Of a stretch of DNA of 64,000 nt, positions 13,533 through 59,010 are shown one piece after another. The stretch is from contig JASMLC010000002.1 of the NCBI GenBank assembly GCA_030748895.1, positions 62,001 through 126,000 of the forward strand, written 5' to 3'. The position numbers and the translations under genes are program-made. This stretch comes from Candidatus Poseidoniia archaeon (GTDB lineage Archaea; Thermoplasmatota; Poseidoniia; MGIII; CG-Epi1). The notes under the pieces were generated by a model that was not told the DNA's origin, ran no database searches, and was given only the letters and a program-made list of their open reading frames with translations. Each line of letters starts with the position of its first letter. Position 1 is the stretch's first letter.

Positions 13533-15314
13533 ATGGCCTCCACGACTCCCTCCCGTTTGCTCGAGAACGCAATGAAGTACGCCGACCAGCCGGCGCTTTC
13601 ATCCCCGTCAGGCGACGACTGGATGACCGAGACCTGGTCCGAAGTCACCGAATTCGTGATGGACATCGCCAAGTCGCTGGTCGCGCTGGGCTTCGAGCCG
13701 GGCGATAAACTGAGCATTTACAGCTACAACCGTCGCGAATGGTACGGTGGCTACCTCGCCGCGCAGATGGCGGGCGGTGTCGGAGTTGGCATTTACCACA
13801 CTTCGTCAGCCGAGGAGGTCGAGTGGGTTGCCGGCAACTCGGAATCGAAAGTGCTGTTTGTCGGCGACAACCCGATGGCGGCTGGCGACAAGGACAAGAT
13901 GCCACAGCACCGGCTGATGCAGGTTATCGACAGCCTGCCCGAGGTCGAGCACTTCGTGCTGCTGCCGGGCGTGGGCGGAGTAGAGCACGAGCGGATGATG
14001 ACCTGGGATGCGTTCATGGGCCACGGCAGCGGAGTCGAGACCGCGACGCTCCACGAGCGCGTCGGCGCGCTGACCGACGCCGACACGAGCGCGCTCATCT
14101 ACACTTCCGGGACAACGGGCAACCCCAAGGGCGTCGAGTTGACGCACGGCAACTGGAATTTTGAGGTCAGGGCGGCAGACTTCGCCTTCCTGTTCACCCA
14201 GGGTGAGCGCTATGTTTCGTGGCTGCCGCTGGCGCACGTTTTCGGCCAGCTGATTGACAACCATTACTGGGTCGACAAGGCGATGCACATGTATGTGGCG
14301 GACAATCCGCTCAACGTCGTCGACCTTGCCAAGGAGGTGCAGCCGCACCTCTTCATCGGAGTGCCGCGCATCTACGAGAAAATCTACTCTAACGTCAAGG
14401 CCGCTATCGACGGCAAGGCGGTGCTGCGCATAGGGCTCAAGCTGCCGCTGCTTTCGGGCATCTTCCGCAAGGCGCTGAAGAAGAAAATCGGCATGAAGGC
14501 GTGCCGCTTCGCGATTACCGGCGCAGCGCCCATCAACCCCGACATTCTGGAACTGTTCCAGTCGCTCGGCATCCCCATTTTCGAAGGCTACGGCATGACC
14601 GAGAACACCGCCGGCGCGACGCTGAATTACGCCGAACAGAACCGCGTCGGCAGCGTCGGCCCGGTCTTCCCCGGCACCGAGATGAAGGTAGCCGATGACG
14701 GTGAGCTGCTGATTAGCGGCCCGCATGTCATGAAGGGCTACTACCGTGACCAGACGGCGACCGACGAGGTGCTCCGCGACGGCTGGCTCTACACTGGCGA
14801 CGTCGGGGCCATCGACGGCGACGGCTTCGTGAAAATCACGGGTCGCAAGAAGGAAATCTACGTCAGCTCGGGCGGCAAGAATATCGCGCCGCTGGTCATC
14901 GAGGAGACGATGAAATCGATGCCGCTGGTGTCGCAATGCTTCCTCGTCGGCGACGCGCGCAAGTATTGCTCGGCGCTGCTGACGCTCGACGCCTTCGCCA
15001 TCATGCGCGACGAGCTCGGGATGGACCCGCTCGAAATCCCCAAGAACCCGGTCGAGCAGGTGGCGAAGCTGGAGGAGCTGGGGCACCCGCTCGACGAGTA
15101 TACCGGCTCGGCCGACATCCGCGCTGAAATTCAGGCGCAGGTGGACGAGCTGAACCAGAAATTCTCGAACCCCGAGCAGGTCAAGAAATTCGCCATCCTG
15201 TCGCGCGACTTCACCGTTGACGACGGCGAACTGACTCCCACGCTTAAAATCCGGCGCAAACAGATAACCGATAACTGGGCGGCGGAAATCGAGTCGCTCT
15301 ACGCCGACGCATGA
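13533..15314 (+). CDS. Long-chain acyl-CoA synthetase (AMP-forming)
   Basis: This 593-residue enzyme activates fatty acids to acyl-CoA through an acyl-adenylate. The AMP-binding signature LIYTSGTTGNPKGVELTHGN is intact, followed by FEGYGMTENTAG, GWLYTGDVGAIDGDGF and the hinge/lysine region LKIRRKQITDNW. Its length and the insert FRKALKKKIG match long-chain (FAA1/FadD15-like) members. It is cytoplasmic or membrane-peripheral. ATG 13533 lies about 20-28 bases after a TTTAATACC box, so an upstream in-frame GTG at 13488 is less likely. The stop overlaps the start of the next gene. Confidence 0.93.
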   Translation: MASTTPSRLLENAMKYADQPALSSPSGDDWMTETWSEVTEFVMDIAKSLVALGFEPGDKLSIYSYNRREWYGGYLAAQMAGGVGVGIYHTSSAEEVEWVAGNSESKVLFVGDNPMAAGDKDKMPQHRLMQVIDSLPEVEHFVLLPGVGGVEHERMMTWDAFMGHGSGVETATLHERVGALTDADTSALIYTSGTTGNPKGVELTHGNWNFEVRAADFAFLFTQGERYVSWLPLAHVFGQLIDNHYWVDKAMHMYVADNPLNVVDLAKEVQPHLFIGVPRIYEKIYSNVKAAIDGKAVLRIGLKLPLLSGIFRKALKKKIGMKACRFAITGAAPINPDILELFQSLGIPIFEGYGMTENTAGATLNYAEQNRVGSVGPVFPGTEMKVADDGELLISGPHVMKGYYRDQTATDEVLRDGWLYTGDVGAIDGDGFVKITGRKKEIYVSSGGKNIAPLVIEETMKSMPLVSQCFLVGDARKYCSALLTLDAFAIMRDELGMDPLEIPKNPVEQVAKLEELGHPLDEYTGSADIRAEIQAQVDELNQKFSNPEQVKKFAILSRDFTVDDGELTPTLKIRRKQITDNWAAEIESLYADA

Positions 15315-30707: not shown

Positions 30708-31376
30708 CTACCCCTCGAGCGGGTCCGGGATGCCCGCCGCCTCGAAGCCGCGCCGCCGCAGCAGGCAGGCGTGGCAGCTTCCGCAGGGCGGCCGCGCGCC
30801 GTTGTAGCAGGTGTGCGACAGCGCCAGCGCCGGGAGCGCGCCGACCTCCTGCGCCAGCAGGACCGTCTCGCGCTTGGTGAGCCGCATCAGCGGCGTCTCG
30901 ATGACGATGGGCGGCGCGGCGCCCTCGATGGCGGCGTTGATTGCCGCCTGCATCGCGTCGATGAAGGGCTGGCGGCAGTCGGGGTAGCCGCCGAAGTCGG
31001 TCTCGCAGACGCCGGCGACGATGGTGTCGCAGCCGGTGGCGGCAGCGCGGTTGGCGGCCAGCGACAGGAAGAGCAGGTTGCGGCCCGGGACGAAGGTTGC
31101 CTCGACGCCATCCGGCAGCGCCTCGCCATCGGCGTATTGCGCGACCGCGCGCGAAGCGTCGGTGAGCGGCGAGCTGCCCGCCAGTCCCGGCAGCTTGACC
31201 AGCTCCCACTCGACCCCCGCCAGCGCGGCGATTTCGCGCGCCGCGTCGATTTCGACGCGGTGCCGCTGCCCGTAGTCGAAGGTGAGCGCCGCGACCGATT
31301 CGTGGCGCGCGAGCGCCCAGTAAAGGCAGGTGGTGCTGTCCTGCCCGCCGCTGAAAACTACGAGTGCCTTGCCCAT
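30708..31376 (-). CDS. queC: 7-cyano-7-deazaguanine (preQ0) synthase
   Basis: This 222-residue enzyme turns 7-carboxy-7-deazaguanine into preQ0, the precursor of archaeosine in tRNA. It has the PP-loop VVFSGGQDSTTCLYWAL and a C-terminal zinc site with CYNGARPPCGSCHAC. ATG 31376 is preferred over an upstream in-frame start because a CCTATAAC box at about 31402-31409 lies 27-33 bases before it. That box overlaps the stop codon of the glycosyltransferase gene upstream. Confidence 0.95.
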   Translation of the reverse strand: MGKALVVFSGGQDSTTCLYWALARHESVAALTFDYGQRHRVEIDAAREIAALAGVEWELVKLPGLAGSSPLTDASRAVAQYADGEALPDGVEATFVPGRNLLFLSLAANRAAATGCDTIVAGVCETDFGGYPDCRQPFIDAMQAAINAAIEGAAPPIVIETPLMRLTKRETVLLAQEVGALPALALSHTCYNGARPPCGSCHACLLRRRGFEAAGIPDPLEG

Positions 31377-31404
31377 CGTGCTCCGTGGCGGGGATGGCGT
31401 GCGG

Positions 31405-34050
31405 TTATAGGAACCCACGCCGCCACGCGACCCACGCCGCGCTGCCGTTCGCCAGCGCGGCGGCCGCCAGCCCGAGCGTCAGCGCCAGCCGTTGCGCCTC
31501 GTTGAGCGGCAGCTTCCCGCGCGGTTGCCCCTGCCCTTGCGGCGGCTGGTGCTGATTCGCGACCGGCTGCTCTCCGTCGGGGCCTTGCAGGTGCTCCAGG
31601 TCAGCGGCGCTCTGCAGGAAGAGTGCGAAATCGTTCTCGGGATGGTTGTCGGCGCGGAACTGTGCGCTGACCGCGATGCGTTCGCCCGGCTCGAGCGTGA
31701 CCGCATGCTGGCCGAAAACCAGCATCACCGTCGCGTTGCCCTCGACCGGGTCGCGCAACAGCGCCGCGCTGGAGCCGCGCAGCTCGACCACCTCGGCGCC
31801 CCCGACGTGGACGCGCCGGTCAAGGAACTGCTGCGGCGTCGCGTCGAGCTGGAAGATGGTCGCCTCGGTCGTCGGCTGCTGCTGCTGCCCGCTGCGGTTC
31901 CAGCGCTGCTGCAGGTCGGTTTCGGCGTCGGCGAAGGCGACCGCGCCCGACGCGATGATGAGCGCTGCGATGGCCAGCGCCAGCCACTTGCCCCGCTCCA
32001 GCGAACCGGAAATCTGCGCCAACCCGGCCGCCGCTAGGATTCCGGCCGGCGGTGCCAGTGGGAGGTAGTAGCGGATGTCGGTGAAGGTATTGGCGAGTAC
32101 CCACCCTTGCGTCAGGTAGATGGCGCTGATTGAGCCGAGCCACCATCCCAGCGCGATGCCAGCAGCGGGCTGGCGCCGCAGTGCCAATGCGCCGGGGAAT
32201 GCGCAGAGCAAGGCGGGGAAGAAGGCGGCGACGAACTTCGCGACCTGCGGCAGGTTCTCGCGCTCCTGCTCGCCCAGGTTGATGTAGCCGTCCCACATCG
32301 AGACCGACGCCTCGTGCGTCTCGACCGTCAGGTTGTCACCGTCGCTCGAGACCTCGAGCTGGTTGCGCGACTGGTAGCCGGAGTTGAGCGCACCGCCGAA
32401 ATAGTGTGCATTGTAGGCGGCGAGCGGGATGCCGACCAGCAGCAGCCCCACAGTCAGCGCCCCCGCCTGCAGCAGCGGGTCGCGCACCGCCGGCCACGCT
32501 AGCGCTTCGCGCAGCCGCCGGGGCAGTTCGCGCGTCCGGCCCGCCGGCAGGTTGAGCCAGCCGATGTAGAGATACGGTGCGCCCGCCATCACGACCGTCG
32601 TATAGCGCATCGACACTCCCAGTCCGAAGAGCACCCCGCCGCCGAGCGCCAGCAGCAGCACGCTGCGGCTGGCGCCTTCCCGCCGGCCGCGGTGCGCCGC
32701 CTCGACCACCAGCCACAAGCCGGGCAGCGCGAACGAGACGGCGGCCAGGTCGCCCATCCACTGGCTGAACCAGAGCAGCAGCACCGTCGCGTTGGCGAGC
32801 GTGAAGGCTGTCGCCAGCCACGCCACGCGCCAGCCGCACCAGCGGCGCGCCAGCCCGTAAGTGGCGGCGCCCGCTATTAGCGCCAGCAGCGTGCCGAAGA
32901 GCGGTTCGGCGCCGAGCAGGATGAGCGGCATCAGCGCTGCGCTGGGGCCGGGCGGCCAGTGGTTGACGTAGTGGTATTCGCCGTCGACCTCGGCGATGCC
33001 GGATGCCAGCGGCGGGTCGTAGCCCTCGATAAGCCAGTGGCTCGCCAACTGGTATTCGCCCAGCTCCAGCTCGCGCTCCGCGACCAGTTTCCCGTCGGCG
33101 CCGGTCATCCCGAGCGGCTCCGGCGTGGCGTCCGGCCCGCGCTGCGACAGCTCGACCTCGGCGCCAGCGACGGGGACGCCCAGGGTATCCTGCAGAGCGA
33201 CGGTCAGCCGCACCTGCTCGACCACCATCGCGGTGCGCCGCCCCTGCGCGTCGGTCGCCCCCAGCTCGTGGCCGTCGAGCAGCAGGCGCGCGCCGGCGAC
33301 CGGGTCGCCGTCACGCTCGACCCGCAGCGTGCCGCGCTTCGCCCCCAAATCGCCCAGCGCCAGCCGCCCCTGCGCGTCGGTCTCGCCGCGCGGTTGGCCG
33401 TTGAAGCGCACCGTGAGCCCTTCGCGGTCGCCCTCCAGCTGCACCTCGAGCAGCCCGCCCAGCGTGCGGTCGGTCAGGAACTCGATGCTCGCCAGCGACG
33501 CAATGCCGTAGCGCACGGCGTTGCCGAGCGGCACCTCCAGCAGCGTGCGGTAGACCACGCTCTGGCCGTCGCGCGACGCGCGCACCTCGAGCGGCGGGTT
33601 GCCGGCCGGGAGCCCGCGCAGCTCTGCGCCGCCGTCGGCGTCGGTGACGGCCGTGAGTGCGCCTTGTGGGCGCGGGATGCTGACGCTGGCGTTGACCGCC
33701 GGCGCGCCGTCGTTGAACGCCACGCTGACGCGCAGGTCGTCGTCGAGCCCGTCGGGGTCGAGCGCGACGATTTCCCACGCCACCTGCAGCGGCGGCACTC
33801 CGCTATCGATGGAGATTGCCTCTTCGTCACGGTGGTCGCCGTTGGCCAGTTGCAGCGGCAGCGACCAGTATCCGTCAAGGTAGAGTTCGGCCCACGGGTA
33901 GTAGCCCTCCTCGTCCTTCAGGTGCCCCGCCGCGACCAGGTCGTGCGGCTGCGCGAGCATCCAGCCCGTCAGGAGCAGGAACGCCAGTACCAGCAGCGCC
34001 AGCGCCGGCCGCTCGCGGTCCAGCCTGCTCATCGCCGTGCGGAGTTCCAC
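31405..34050 (-). CDS. GT-C membrane glycosyltransferase with large outward insertion
   Basis: This 881-residue protein has a first helix (about residues 15-33), then about 330 outward residues of beta-sandwich repeats of the carboxypeptidase-regulatory/Big type (for example [19 protein letters not shown] and [16 protein letters not shown]). Some ten further helices follow (about 370-740), then a small beta domain and a last helix. The polytopic part resembles dolichyl-phosphate-linked GT-C enzymes, with an acidic [19 protein letters not shown] in the first loop. It probably glycosylates surface proteins or lipids. GTG 34050 follows a CTAAATATC box by 20-28 bases; ATG 34032 is the alternative. 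Confidence 0.7.
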
Positions 34051-55600: not shown

Positions 55601-55810
55601 ACGCTCTCGGCCGGCGCGCACATCCTGACGCTGGAGGTGCGTGACGGCGAGGGAGGTGAAACGACCGCGACAGTCGCGGTCGAGGTCCGCGCTATCGAAC
55701 GCGAAGACTCGTCATTCCTGCCCGCGCCGGGTGCGTGGATGACGGCGGTCGCCCTCGCCGGCGTCAGTCTTCTTCTGGCTGCCAGACGTGACCGGTCTCG
55801 TCGAGGTTGA
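52652..55810 (+). CDS. Large secreted subtilisin-like protease (S8) with CARDB and PKD domains
   Basis: This 1052-residue exported protease has a signal peptide (residues 1-20), a propeptide and an S8 domain with Asp165 (AILDTGVDFAH), His219 (SHGTHVAGIAAG) and Ser398 (YSGTSMSAPHVAGLAAL). Downstream are a CARDB-like domain (about 625-730), an Ig-like domain (about 740-830), a PKD domain (about 835-925, YAFDFGDGDA), another PKD-like module and a C-terminal helix plus Arg tail as anchor. It should break down external protein. GTG 52652 follows an ACACTTATC box by about 23-31 bases. The end overlaps the next gene by 47 bases. Confidence 0.93.
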   Translation: MKRFMTLLLVALLALPTLAGMLPAGAMPVSPDGVELPAETASLVDPRLALMAAQPGRIGELGGTPAPEGQISVIMRVDDLRGEHRTYVVSLGGEVVSWFPRFETFGAIVPLNALPSLTWLPGLVWLEPDVMFYPALDNSVASLRTTDVWSQFGFRGENVTIAILDTGVDFAHESLDDLDDISSTDDPKIAVDADGKLAFYNANTDKEYPDEQPHDSGSHGTHVAGIAAGTGGPSGTYAGMAPQARLAGVIALDGGGGDTNDLLRSVNWTISNRDRFNIRVMSLSLGGPVVIPGATNDGQSSISQALDNAVENGIVTTVAIGNGNLGVAAHPGSVTYPGDSERAITVGSVNDNHNREIYSSRGPTGDGRLKPDVMAPGGGVMSAQKGSGDGYVSYSGTSMSAPHVAGLAALMVQANPQMRPDAASSPYKQIMRETSDHRVPFDLDCGELYSPNNCYGWGTVDALGAVRRALDLRSGSIAGPPEIPVLENGSFTLAMDYTRTEHTTRGEDGGTIQDYPQGEQPDSVRVEARWSASWPAPSNFELDADAADGLTAEAAFASGVDGGERFVRGWFNYTGEPAAGAVLISYPTLRFDLGAPVAVTETQLRASYALNNNPGISRSLEVSSYSDPPDLRIEELRLQPEVPLPEEEVQLIARIVNEGLGRARSFSVEFSLDGEPLGTREGSLDPEQALNLALPWTAVLGEHEFTALLVDISPTDADDSDHSATLSATVTDIIDTQPPLAFITAPHENEILSGTVTVSGTASDNYAVRRVEVRVAPNAWETASGTIDWGWEWNTTADLNGRYRIEARAWDGFNYSSSATVEVEITNDDANRRPTARLSAEPLELEFGEPVSFSGNGSSDDSQVAGYAFDFGDGDATGWASQSWARHTYLSPGSYTATLEVQDDEGAHSSAPASVTIMVLDEQPNRPPLALIALPQPGTQLSAGVVALSAAGSSDPDGDPLLFSWSSDRDGHLVTTSSFETSATLSAGAHILTLEVRDGEGGETTATVAVEVRAIEREDSSFLPAPGAWMTAVALAGVSLLLAARRDRSRRG

Positions 55811-56069
55811 AGACCTCACGCAACAGTTCGTCGGTGAACCGCTTTCCAATCGAGGTCTCGGCCTGAATATATTCCTCCAGCTCGCCGAGGTCAATCTCGC
55901 CGTCGGGGCCGAAGGCCACCGGCGATTCGGCGAAGCGGAAGCGCACTTCCTGCGCGCCGCGGTCGAAGCTGAACTCCTCGAGGTAACCGGCTTCGCGCAT
56001 CAACTCGCCCAGATCCACCAGCCGCTTGCCGCGTGCGGTGGAATCAACCCGGAAGGCGATAGTGGTCAT
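55764..56069 (-). CDS. Small acidic protein, unknown
   Basis: This 101-residue cytoplasmic protein begins MTTIAFRVDSTARGKRLVDL and is acidic, with EIDLGELEEYIQAETSIGKR in the middle. No family is recognised. It overlaps the 3' end of the subtilase gene by 47 bases. A GTTTTTAG box lies about 20-30 bases upstream. Regular strand–helix alternation and normal codon use support a real gene. Confidence 0.65.
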   Translation of the reverse strand: MTTIAFRVDSTARGKRLVDLGELMREAGYLEEFSFDRGAQEVRFRFAESPVAFGPDGEIDLGELEEYIQAETSIGKRFTDELLREVFNLDETGHVWQPEED

Positions 56070-56118: not shown

Positions 56119-56481
56119 TCAGCCGGCGAACTCGACGCGCGAGGTCTCGTTCTCCCACAGCACCAGCTTGCGCAGCTGCGGCAGGCTCGGCGCCAGCCGT
56201 TCCCAGAGCCATGCGACCAGCACCTCGCTGGTCGGGTTCTCCAGCCCCGGAAGGTCGTTGAGGTAGTTGTGGTCGACCTGCGCTTTCAGCGACGCGAACG
56301 CCTCTTCGAGTAGTGCGAAATCGACCACCATCCCGGTCGCGGGGTCCATCTCGCCTTCAACGTGGATTTCGAGCCGGAAGGCCTGACCGTAGACCCGCCT
56401 ACAGGGATGGCCTGCGGGGACGCGCGTCAGCTTGCGCGCCGACTCGAAACGGATGATATGGACCAGTTTGTGGACGCCCAC
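56119..56481 (-). CDS. QueD-like (6-carboxytetrahydropterin synthase/PTPS) protein lacking zinc histidines
   Basis: This 120-residue protein is strikingly close to QueD over its length: DHNYLNDLPGLENPTSEVL, GMVVDFALLEEAF and VLWENETSRVEF are intact, as are the catalytic Cys (AGHPCRRV) and the Asp-His pair. QueD normally binds zinc with the His of AHRL and the two of HGH. Here these read ARKL and YGQ, so all three ligands are lost. It may be a zinc-free homologue with a new role or one using another metal site. GTG 56481 abuts the MBL gene stop; the two are probably co-transcribed. Confidence 0.8.
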   Translation of the reverse strand: MGVHKLVHIIRFESARKLTRVPAGHPCRRVYGQAFRLEIHVEGEMDPATGMVVDFALLEEAFASLKAQVDHNYLNDLPGLENPTSEVLVAWLWERLAPSLPQLRKLVLWENETSRVEFAG

Positions 56482-57222
56482 TCAGCAGGTGACGACATCG
56501 CCCGATTCGGGGATGGTCCACTTGCGCTGGCGGTATTTCTTGAGGATATCCTTCTTCTGCTTGCGCAGGTCGCGCTGCAGGTGGACCAGCGCCATCTGCT
56601 TTGGTCGCGCCAGGTCATGCAGTCGCTCCAGCTGGACCAGGCTGCAGTGGGTCTTGGTCTGCCCGTCCTCAAGGTATGCCTCGTGCACCAGCAGGTTGGC
56701 TCCCGTGTAGAGCTTGGCGGCGGTGGGGGTGAACATCCCGTCACCCGAGTAGCAGAACACCTTCTGCGGCGAGCCCGCTTCGAGGCGCAGCCCGAGGTTC
56801 TGGACGCTGTGGCGCGTGTTGACGACGCGCAGGTTCCAGTCGTCCCAGCGGTGCGACCGCTGTAGCTCGCGGAAACGTAGTGTGAAGGGAATGTGCTTGA
56901 CCATCCCGGGGTACGCCATCTCCATCAGCCGCTCGAGGTGGCGCTGGCTCCCGACCGGGCCGAAGAGGTAGAATGGGCGCGTGCGGCCATCTTCCCACAT
57001 GCGCATCAGCAACGCCGGCAGTCCGAAGACGTGGTCAGCGTGGAAATGCGAGATAAATACACCATCGAGGAAGTCGGGCCGGACCGAAATCTTCCACACT
57101 TCGGATGGTGTGTTGGCACCACACTCGACCAGCATGCGTCGTCCGGCTGCCTCTACCAGCAGGCAGACGTTGGTCTGCGTCTCGTCGAATGCCTCACCGA
57201 CACCCAGGAAACTGATTTTCAT
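56482..57222 (-). CDS. MBL-fold hydrolase, RNase Z-like
   Basis: This 246-residue cytoplasmic metallo-beta-lactamase-fold protein has the metal motif FISHFHADHVFGLP, a second His region NTRHSVQNLGLRLE, the Asp in CYSGDGMFTPT and a final His in MALVHLQ. RNase Z and related phosphodiesterases share this order, but the tRNA-binding exosite is not seen. The 3' neighbour is the QueD-like gene, and both are on one transcript, so a pterin- or deazaguanine-related phosphodiesterase is possible. A TGAAAAATG box is about 25 bases upstream. Confidence 0.8.
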   Translation of the reverse strand: MKISFLGVGEAFDETQTNVCLLVEAAGRRMLVECGANTPSEVWKISVRPDFLDGVFISHFHADHVFGLPALLMRMWEDGRTRPFYLFGPVGSQRHLERLMEMAYPGMVKHIPFTLRFRELQRSHRWDDWNLRVVNTRHSVQNLGLRLEAGSPQKVFCYSGDGMFTPTAAKLYTGANLLVHEAYLEDGQTKTHCSLVQLERLHDLARPKQMALVHLQRDLRKQKKDILKKYRQRKWTIPESGDVVTC

Positions 57223-57368: not shown

Positions 57369-57887
57369 TCAGCGCGAGCGGCGGTGCCCCTCGAGGTAGT
57401 GGTAGACCGAGCCGTGCTCGGCCCCCGCGAGCAGCATCCCCAGCGCGACCTTGGCCGCCTCGACCGCCTCGAGCGAGCCAAGCAGCGCTACCGTATGCCC
57501 CTGCACCGCCATGCGGGCGTTGCTCTGCTCCTCGATGATGCGGCGTGTCTTGCCGTTGCGACCGATGACCCTGCCGCGCATCCGCTCCAGCCGCTTGCGC
57601 GAGTGGCCGGTGTGGTCGCGGATATCGACCACTTCAAGGTAGGTCTCGGGGTCGAGCAGCTCGCGTGCCGTCTCCGGGGAAAAGCCGCGGCCGATGGCGC
57701 GCACGACCGCCAGCAGCTGCAGCGCCAGCAGCGCGTCGCCCCGCTCGGGCTGGACGACGCGCACCATCCCGGTCCGCGAGTCAATTTCGAGGGTACAGCC
57801 GGTGGCGTCCTCGAACTCCTTGCGGGTTTCTCCGTCGTGGCCTATGAGCACCCCGATGCGACGTTGCGGAATCCTCACGTACTCCAT
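57369..57887 (-). CDS. KH-domain RNA-binding protein (archaeal Dim2/Pno1-like)
   Basis: This 172-residue protein has two KH domains: the first with VRIPQRRIGVLIGHDGETRK (GxxG: GHDG) and the second with MRGRVIGRNGKTRRIIEEQS (GxxG: GRNG). It corresponds to the archaeal homologue of Pno1/Dim2, which binds 16S rRNA during small-subunit maturation. It overlaps the RIO1 kinase gene by 13 bases, and aIF1A precedes both, a conserved archaeal ribosome-related cluster. Confidence 0.92.
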   Translation of the reverse strand: MEYVRIPQRRIGVLIGHDGETRKEFEDATGCTLEIDSRTGMVRVVQPERGDALLALQLLAVVRAIGRGFSPETARELLDPETYLEVVDIRDHTGHSRKRLERMRGRVIGRNGKTRRIIEEQSNARMAVQGHTVALLGSLEAVEAAKVALGMLLAGAEHGSVYHYLEGHRRSR

Positions 57888-58624
57888 TGCTCGACCTCCT
57901 GTCGCGACAGCCCCGGCAGCCGCTTGCGGAACCAGCGGTGGATATTGCCAAGGTCGCGCTCATGCAGCTCTGCGAAGCGTGGATGCTGGCGAGGTACCGC
58001 CTGCCCCACGTCGATAATGCAGGGCTGCTCGCGCACGTTAAGCACGTTGTATTCCGACAGGTCGCCGTGCGCCAGCCCCGCGCCGTGGTACGCCTTCACC
58101 GAGCCCATCAGCGCCTGCAGGAACTCGCGCGGTTCCTCGGGCGGCAGCTCGCGCAGCGTTGGATAGGGGTGGTAGCGCCAGCCGCGGTACTGCATCACCA
58201 GCAGGTTGCGGTGGACGTGGAACGGCTGCGGTACGCTGGCGCCAGCGGCGTGCATCAGGTGCAGGTTCTTGAATTCCTTCTGCGCCCAGGTGAAAATCCG
58301 GTCGCGGTGCGACTTGCCGCTGTGCGGGAAGCGCGGGTCGCCATCAAGGTAGGGCGCCAGCTTGCGGAAGGTGGCAGTGCTGAGCCGGTAGATTTTCACG
58401 GCGCGGTTGCGCCCGTCGCGCGTCTTGCCGCGGAAGACGTTCGCCTCCTTGCCGGTGGCGATGATGTTTTCGAGCGTGTGCAGCACGCCGCGGCTGAAGA
58501 GCTGCTGGATGGCGTGCAACGTCGGCTCGTCAAACACCGCGTCGAGTGTCTTGCGTCCGTCGCGGTCGCCCGCGCGTACAAGCTGCCCCCGCTGTCGGTC
58601 CAGCCTCAGCAGGCTCTCTTCCAT
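57875..58624 (-). CDS. rio1: RIO1-type serine/threonine protein kinase
   Basis: This 249-residue atypical kinase/ATPase acts in late 40S-type subunit maturation. It has the flexible ATP loop STGKEANVFRG (read ATGKEANVFRG), the Lys in RAVKIYR, the catalytic LAHGDLSEYNVL and the metal loop PCIIDVGQAVP. The usual N-terminal RIO helices are short but present. It starts in the TGATG overlap with the aIF1A stop and ends 13 bases inside the KH gene. Confidence 0.95.
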   Translation of the reverse strand: MEESLLRLDRQRGQLVRAGDRDGRKTLDAVFDEPTLHAIQQLFSRGVLHTLENIIATGKEANVFRGKTRDGRNRAVKIYRLSTATFRKLAPYLDGDPRFPHSGKSHRDRIFTWAQKEFKNLHLMHAAGASVPQPFHVHRNLLVMQYRGWRYHPYPTLRELPPEEPREFLQALMGSVKAYHGAGLAHGDLSEYNVLNVREQPCIIDVGQAVPRQHPRFAELHERDLGNIHRWFRKRLPGLSRQEVEQWST

Positions 58625-59010
58625 CAGTAAATGTCCAGGATTTCCGGTATCAGGTCCTGCCGCTTCAGGTTGGCGCTTTGCGTCGCCGTGTAGCGGAACT
58701 TGACGTCAGCCTTCGAATCCTGGAACGACCACGGGACGATAATCAGCAGGTCGTTCTCGCGCACCCACATCCGGCGCCGCAGCTTGCCGGGGATGCGCCC
58801 CATGCGCCGCTTGCCATCCTCGCAGATGAGCTGCAGCCGGCTGCCGCCCTGGAAGGTCTCGGCGACGGCGAACATTTCCCCTTTGGGGCGATACGGCAGC
58901 GGCAGCCGCAACGTATGTTTCTGCCCCTCCTTGTCTTCAATGGTGACTTTTACGCTCTGCTTGAATCCGCGCTTTTTGTCGTCGCTGGGGACTGCCACAT
59001 CGTGCGGCAC
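58624..59010 (-). CDS. eif1A: Translation initiation factor aIF1A
   Basis: This roughly 128-residue OB-fold factor binds the ribosomal A site during initiation. It has LPYRPKGEMFAVAETFQGGS, LICEDGKRRMGRIPGKLRRR and MWVRENDLLIIVPWSFQDSK, the aIF1A core. No ATG fits: the frame has GTG at 59010 and 58998. A GCTTATAA box (59028-59021) lies 11-30 bases before them, favouring GTG 58998 for a leaderless start or 59010 with a minimal leader. It leads the aIF1A–RIO1–KH operon. Confidence 0.93.
   Translation of the reverse strand: MPHDVAVPSDDKKRGFKQSVKVTIEDKEGQKHTLRLPLPYRPKGEMFAVAETFQGGSRLQLICEDGKRRMGRIPGKLRRRMWVRENDLLIIVPWSFQDSKADVKFRYTATQSANLKRQDLIPEILDIY

Follow-up and report, generated by a model that had tools for sequence, protein, structure and literature searches.

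Proteins of the QueD/PTPS family are treated, to our knowledge, as obligate zinc enzymes, and they are annotated automatically as members of the preQ0 pathway. The closest described system is QueD (PTPS-I), with structures from E. coli (4ntk, 4ntn, 3qn0) and P. aeruginosa (2oba). The roles given here to the zinc ligands, Cys27, the Asp70-His71 pair and Glu110 are those established from PTPS/QueD structures, in which Glu110 is the anchor of the pterin ring. In PTPS-III, the bypass of dihydroneopterin aldolase in the folate pathway, the catalytic Cys is replaced (by Glu in Plasmodium), and in the QueF layout a T-fold carries Cys, Asp-His and Glu with no metal. QueD paralogues tied to zinc economy have also been described, such as QueD2 of Acinetobacter (7v0f), and Zur-controlled queD2 genes are known among them (PMC9508795).

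Here we analyzed a window of 64,000 nucleotides (the whole stretch of DNA under study) from a genome which is, by its relatives, a Marine Group III (MGIII) archaeon; the related contigs include those of CG-Epi1. On the minus strand of the window, at 56481..56119, lies an ORF of 120 amino acids with a GTG start, which we call QueDL. It contains the PTPS domain (Pfam PF01242, E 6.9e-26, 91 bits) and its residues 10-113 align without any gap to the same residues, 10-113, of E. coli QueD (4ntm), so that one residue numbering serves both proteins. The AlphaFold2 model of QueDL has a pLDDT of 96.1, and the Foldseek search with this model ranks QueD-type structures first (TM 0.96). Among solved proteins its best relatives are QueD of E. 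coli and 2oba of P. aeruginosa. On the profile match and the predicted model, QueDL is a QueD/PTPS-family protein with a T-fold. It has about 42-50% identity to QueD/PTPS-I and shares Cys27, Asp70-His71 and Glu110 with it, but all its zinc ligands are replaced, its score against the QueD equivalog TIGR03367 (NCBIfam) is 74.9 bits and thus under the cut-off of 89.25, and it persists in genomes that have neither folE nor queC nor a canonical queD. Like PTPS-III it belongs to the COG0720 family; PTPS-III, however, differs at the catalytic Cys, whereas QueDL keeps Cys27 and loses zinc instead. Acinetobacter QueD2 resembles QueDL in being a paralogue, but with about 16% identity it is far more distant than QueD.

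The sequence-only reading of this DNA had claimed that all three zinc-binding histidines are lost, and the alignment to E. coli QueD bears this out. His16, His31 and His33 are replaced by Arg (CGC, 56434..56436), Tyr (TAC, 56389..56391) and Gln (CAG, 56383..56385), all on the minus strand. The motif YGQ, which had been given in place of HGH, is true of the window copy, but it is not the family pattern: Arg and Tyr are found in 26 of 26 zinc-less sequences at positions 16 and 31, whereas at position 33 there are 25 sequences with Leu and the window copy alone has Gln, the consensus at the third ligand being Leu. The statement that several independent base changes are needed stands for the site as a whole, where three independent hits are required, but for each ligand a single base change suffices. 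It was also right that this is no sequencing slip; a sequencing error or a pseudogene was considered and ruled out, since R16 and Y31 are at 100% in 26 distinct, independent sequences and dN/dS of close pairs (0.06-0.34) is well below 1. The catalytic Cys and the Asp-His pair are present as described, with Cys27 at 56401..56403, Asp70-His71 at 56269..56274 and Glu110 at 56152..56154 (minus strand). Throughout the zinc-less clade H25, C27, D70, H71 and E110 are at 100%, T111 is always N, and 26 of the 39 positions that are invariant in 75 canonical QueDs are kept. Binding of zinc through other residues had been raised as a possibility, and no alternative set of metal ligands is visible at the QueDL site.

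For classification and for the tree, 122 distinct PTPS sequences were used. Twenty-six of them have R16, HPC, YG[L/Q], D70-H71 and E110-N111, six have R16 with an intact HGH and about 75 are canonical. The zinc-less set forms a single clade with support of 100/99, also when the trait (diagnostic) columns are removed. Within the window's MGIII family 21 genomes were examined; 18 of them carry QueDL intact, and in a nineteenth (G014) it is in pieces, broken by a masked stretch. Outside MGIII, zinc-less members were found only in Myxococcota among the matches listed in a scan of GTDB genomes, and the carriers there number nine after a sample of 284 Myxococcota genomes. The best matches in viral contigs have 50% identity, which is the level of canonical QueD, and these contigs gave nothing closely related to the zinc-less proteins. 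Another PTPS gene is present alongside the zinc-less one in three of four Myxococcota carriers checked (G060, G062, G063), and the zinc-less gene is therefore an extra paralogue. The MGIII sequences nest among those of Myxococcota, and because of this nesting the tree suggests a transfer of the gene from a bacterium to an archaeon; support is modest (81/81) for the fork at which MGIII meets the nearest copy from bacteria. The highest dN/dS values of QueDL involve the window's own species, the sole carrier of Q33. The dN/dS values give a clear signal of purifying selection on QueDL, and it is nearly certain that the zinc-ligand-less lineage is conserved and under selection.

A second QueD with intact ligands had been suggested as a thing to look for, and none was found: the only other PTPS gene of the window genome (L002, at G000:C4:134662-135006) has H16R and keeps HGH, so that this genome has FolE and QueC with no three-ligand QueD found. 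Within the window's genus, four other genomes have counterparts of L002, and a Myxococcota protein (L188) resembles it. These R16/HGH proteins share with QueDL the H16R change, the HPC motif, the catalytic Cys and membership of the same Myxococcota-MGIII group, but they differ from it in retaining His31 and His33. They are sister to the zinc-less clade only with the trait columns included, and their joint grouping is not rejected (p-AU 0.40); as the sister relation is lost when those columns are dropped, they were not accepted as a proven intermediate. In one Myxococcota locus (L202:3840-4439) an R16/HGH QueD-like gene is directly followed by a different PTPS-family gene as a tandem pair. TGT was not found in the window genome, where contig C4 ends (at 136216) about 1.2 kb past L002; in two relatives TGT lies 2-5 kb beyond the L002 counterpart, and its absence here is probably due to the contig break.

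The relation of QueDL to preQ0 synthesis was surveyed across the MGIII genomes. As had been stated earlier, queC is far from QueDL, at 30708-31418 on the minus strand, and there is no genomic link of QueDL to folE, queE or queC, the adjoining gene being that of a metallo-beta-lactamase-fold (MBL) protein. The window queC scores 227 bits, against 132-157 for other full-length queCs of MGIII and MGII, and its place is next to an opp-type transporter, away from folE and queD; it is possibly a separate acquisition. In five MGIII genomes (G009, G012, G013, G015, G017) folE, queC and another QueD are found together, and in G015 they form the operon folE-queE-queC-queD (G015:C4:74054-76449). The QueD of this operon (L287:15989-16450) has AHRQ/HGY, with Tyr at the third zinc histidine, and for this reason zinc coordination may be variable elsewhere in the QueD family.

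Five further genomes (G006, G008, G010, G011, G016; 85-92% complete) gave no FolE, QueC or other QueD in profile searches, and all five keep the MBL-QueDL pair. The chance that the pathway is absent from all five by accident is about 2e-5, if the absences are independent. The absence of FolE is that of profile searches in incomplete genomes, with CG-Epi1 (G011) alone providing a direct empty site. In its assembled genome stretches (about 1.18 Mb) the genes that flank the G015 operon are adjacent and 49 bases apart (G011:C21, about 14268-14317), the four genes between them being gone. CG-Epi1 has lost the whole folE-queE-queC-queD operon cleanly. FolE2/MptA (PF02649) is absent from 24 of 24 genomes searched; a cell in which FolE and FolE2 are both absent has no recognised way of making dihydroneopterin triphosphate, but QueDL is kept all the same. 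It is very likely that QueDL is not a QueD of the preQ0 pathway, and because it outlives this pathway both a pterin enzyme and a zinc-sparing QueD are weakened as explanations. The sequence-only reading had proposed a non-zinc pterin enzyme with a new reaction. The lost zinc site, the selection and a likely function other than that of QueD agree with this proposal, but the usual pterin role does not, as FolE, QueC and QueD are lost in five genomes. A salvaged pterin, or else a purine-like ligand, is possible.

The same data bear on the alternative that QueDL still produces 6-carboxytetrahydropterin but needs no zinc to do so, standing in for QueD at low zinc in the way of the Zur-controlled queD2 (PMC9508795). 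Such a substitute would fit with true QueDs as the nearest homologues, with the retention of those catalytic residues that bind no metal, and with a window genome that has FolE and QueC without a three-ligand QueD. QueDL persists, however, where FolE, QueC and QueD are absent (QueE too in CG-Epi1), and an enzyme of this kind would therefore have neither its substrate nor a use for its product. Other MGIII, and Myxococcota too, have it together with canonical QueD, and it lies in a translation operon and not in a metal-stress context, which leaves this alternative improbable. TGT is kept in CG-Epi1 and in the MGIII genomes without preQ0 synthesis, and these must therefore salvage preQ0. This need would fit a metal-free handling of 7-deazaguanine or its tRNA form via Cys27, in the manner of QueF/QueF-L, in preQ0 salvage or archaeosine formation, and a T-fold with Cys, Asp-His and Glu and no metal does resemble the QueF layout. 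But QueF is absent from the Pfam/NCBIfam matches of QueDL and from its 50 top fold matches listed, and Myxococcota, as far as we know, do not make archaeosine; we regard such a role as very improbable.

The gene beside QueDL had been described as an RNase Z-like MBL gene, and this is correct. It occupies 56482..57222 on the minus strand, and its stop TGA is followed with no gap by the GTG start of QueDL. The same operon includes a KH-domain (Dim2/Krr1-like) protein (57369..57887), a RIO1-type kinase (57875..58624) and eIF1A (58624..58960, 5′ end approximate), all on the minus strand and named from sequence, the first two also placed by ORF and MGIII synteny. eIF1A is the first gene of the conserved run and has 85-87% identity to the syntenic MGIII copies. 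The MGIII gene order is eIF1A-RIO1-KH-MBL-QueDL. QueDL is directly downstream of MBL in every MGIII copy examined. At the 14 MGIII loci where the junction was measured, the two genes either abut without a gap or overlap by 1 base, and the junction reads TGAGTG, TAGATG or TAATG. Downstream of QueDL an ORF of 101 amino acids (55764..56069, minus strand) is conserved only in the window's genus and has no Pfam or NCBIfam match.

The MBL protein matches the RNase Z profile TIGR02651 with E 1.2e-31, but its 110 bits are below the cut-off of 293. Only profile positions 1-149 and about 198-287 are covered, and 150-199, the exosite arm, is skipped. The metal motif is invariant (H59xH61xD63H64, H138, D161, H214), and the predicted structure has a pLDDT of 39 only. 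For close pairs dN/dS of this gene is 0.01-0.15, compared with 0.06-0.34 for QueDL. On these profile and motif data the protein is RNase Z-like with the tRNA-binding (exosite) arm absent. In nearly every MGIII genome searched, with G002 as the exception, no other protein comes near it as a match to RNase Z. A comparable protein is the arCOG00500 'NZ' MBL HVO_2763 of Haloferax, which is likewise archaeal, RNase Z-like and without exosite, but has no reported QueD-like neighbour; the partner of QueDL is a candidate member of arCOG00500. HVO_2763 has no tRNA-processing activity (PMC3296008).

Because the two genes are coupled, QueDL may share a pathway or a complex with MBL in archaea, and we consider a functional partnership of the two in MGIII to be likely. 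In Myxococcota no MBL of this kind adjoins the zinc-less gene (best match 27%); the neighbours are an aminopeptidase P, an inositol phosphatase, an RNase H and a methyltransferase, and they differ between two synteny groups, so nothing common is suggested and a shared neighbour was rejected. The partnership is therefore not universal, and it may be incidental or archaeal only. It is also conceivable that QueDL is non-catalytic and serves the arm-less MBL as a subunit which binds a ligand or acts as a scaffold, either regulating the MBL or completing it, for instance with a substrate-recognition surface in place of the exosite. The coupling in all MGIII copies examined, the exact loss of profile segment 150-199, the RNA-related operon (eIF1A, RIO1, KH) and the rank of this MBL as top RNase Z match outside G002 are in line with such a subunit. 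We nevertheless hold it to be unlikely, as a scaffold would not need the invariant C27, D70, H71 and E110, Myxococcota have no such MBL neighbour, and CCA is encoded in 8 of 8 MGIII tRNA genes read (two of them in the window), so that RNase Z is not strictly required in MGIII. The inactivity of the exosite-less Haloferax MBL in tRNA processing counts against it as well (PMC3296008). With encoded CCA and an inactive counterpart, the idea that the MBL is the tRNase Z of MGIII and that QueDL takes the place of its arm was kept as a rival only. An MBL that opens the dihydroneopterin cyclic phosphate (MptA) for QueDL was rejected, as none of the genomes searched contains PF02649.

The explanation that we favour, and to which we give about an even chance, is that QueDL is a neofunctionalised metal-free T-fold protein which acts, together with the coupled MBL, on a ligand that does not belong to the preQ0 pathway. 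In Myxococcota, a duplicate of QueD would have lost its zinc site via H16R, H31Y and H33L and retained the fold, the Cys27/Asp70-His71 relay and the ligand-anchoring Glu110. The gene would have entered the MGIII family through a single transfer to its ancestor, and there it would have been placed directly downstream of the exosite-less RNase Z-like MBL and translated with it as a coupled pair. QueDL would probably still be catalytic through Cys27 and Asp-His without metal, its ligand may be purine- or pterin-like and not derived from FolE/preQ0 synthesis, and the MBL, a metallo-phosphodiesterase in this scheme, would share with QueDL either the molecule acted upon or a complex. That C27, Asp-His and Glu are invariant speaks for a chemistry still carried out on a planar ligand of a related kind; metal-free catalysis using Cys27 has somewhat less than an even chance, and invariant C27, D70 and H71 could in principle be structural rather than catalytic. 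More tentatively, a new metal-free T-fold enzyme, which would have arisen from QueD by removal of the zinc site, and a coupled MBL phosphodiesterase might together catalyse a reaction not yet described, in archaea as well as in bacteria, with a purine- or pterin-like nucleotide as the substrate.

The zinc-less QueD relative probably does a new job. Its clade is present in two domains of life, with the metal site gone and the remaining active site kept under selection, and it outlives the pathway of its origin and marks a misannotated family. It thus provides a natural experiment in the conversion of a metalloenzyme to metal-free use, in one small protein with a coupled partner.
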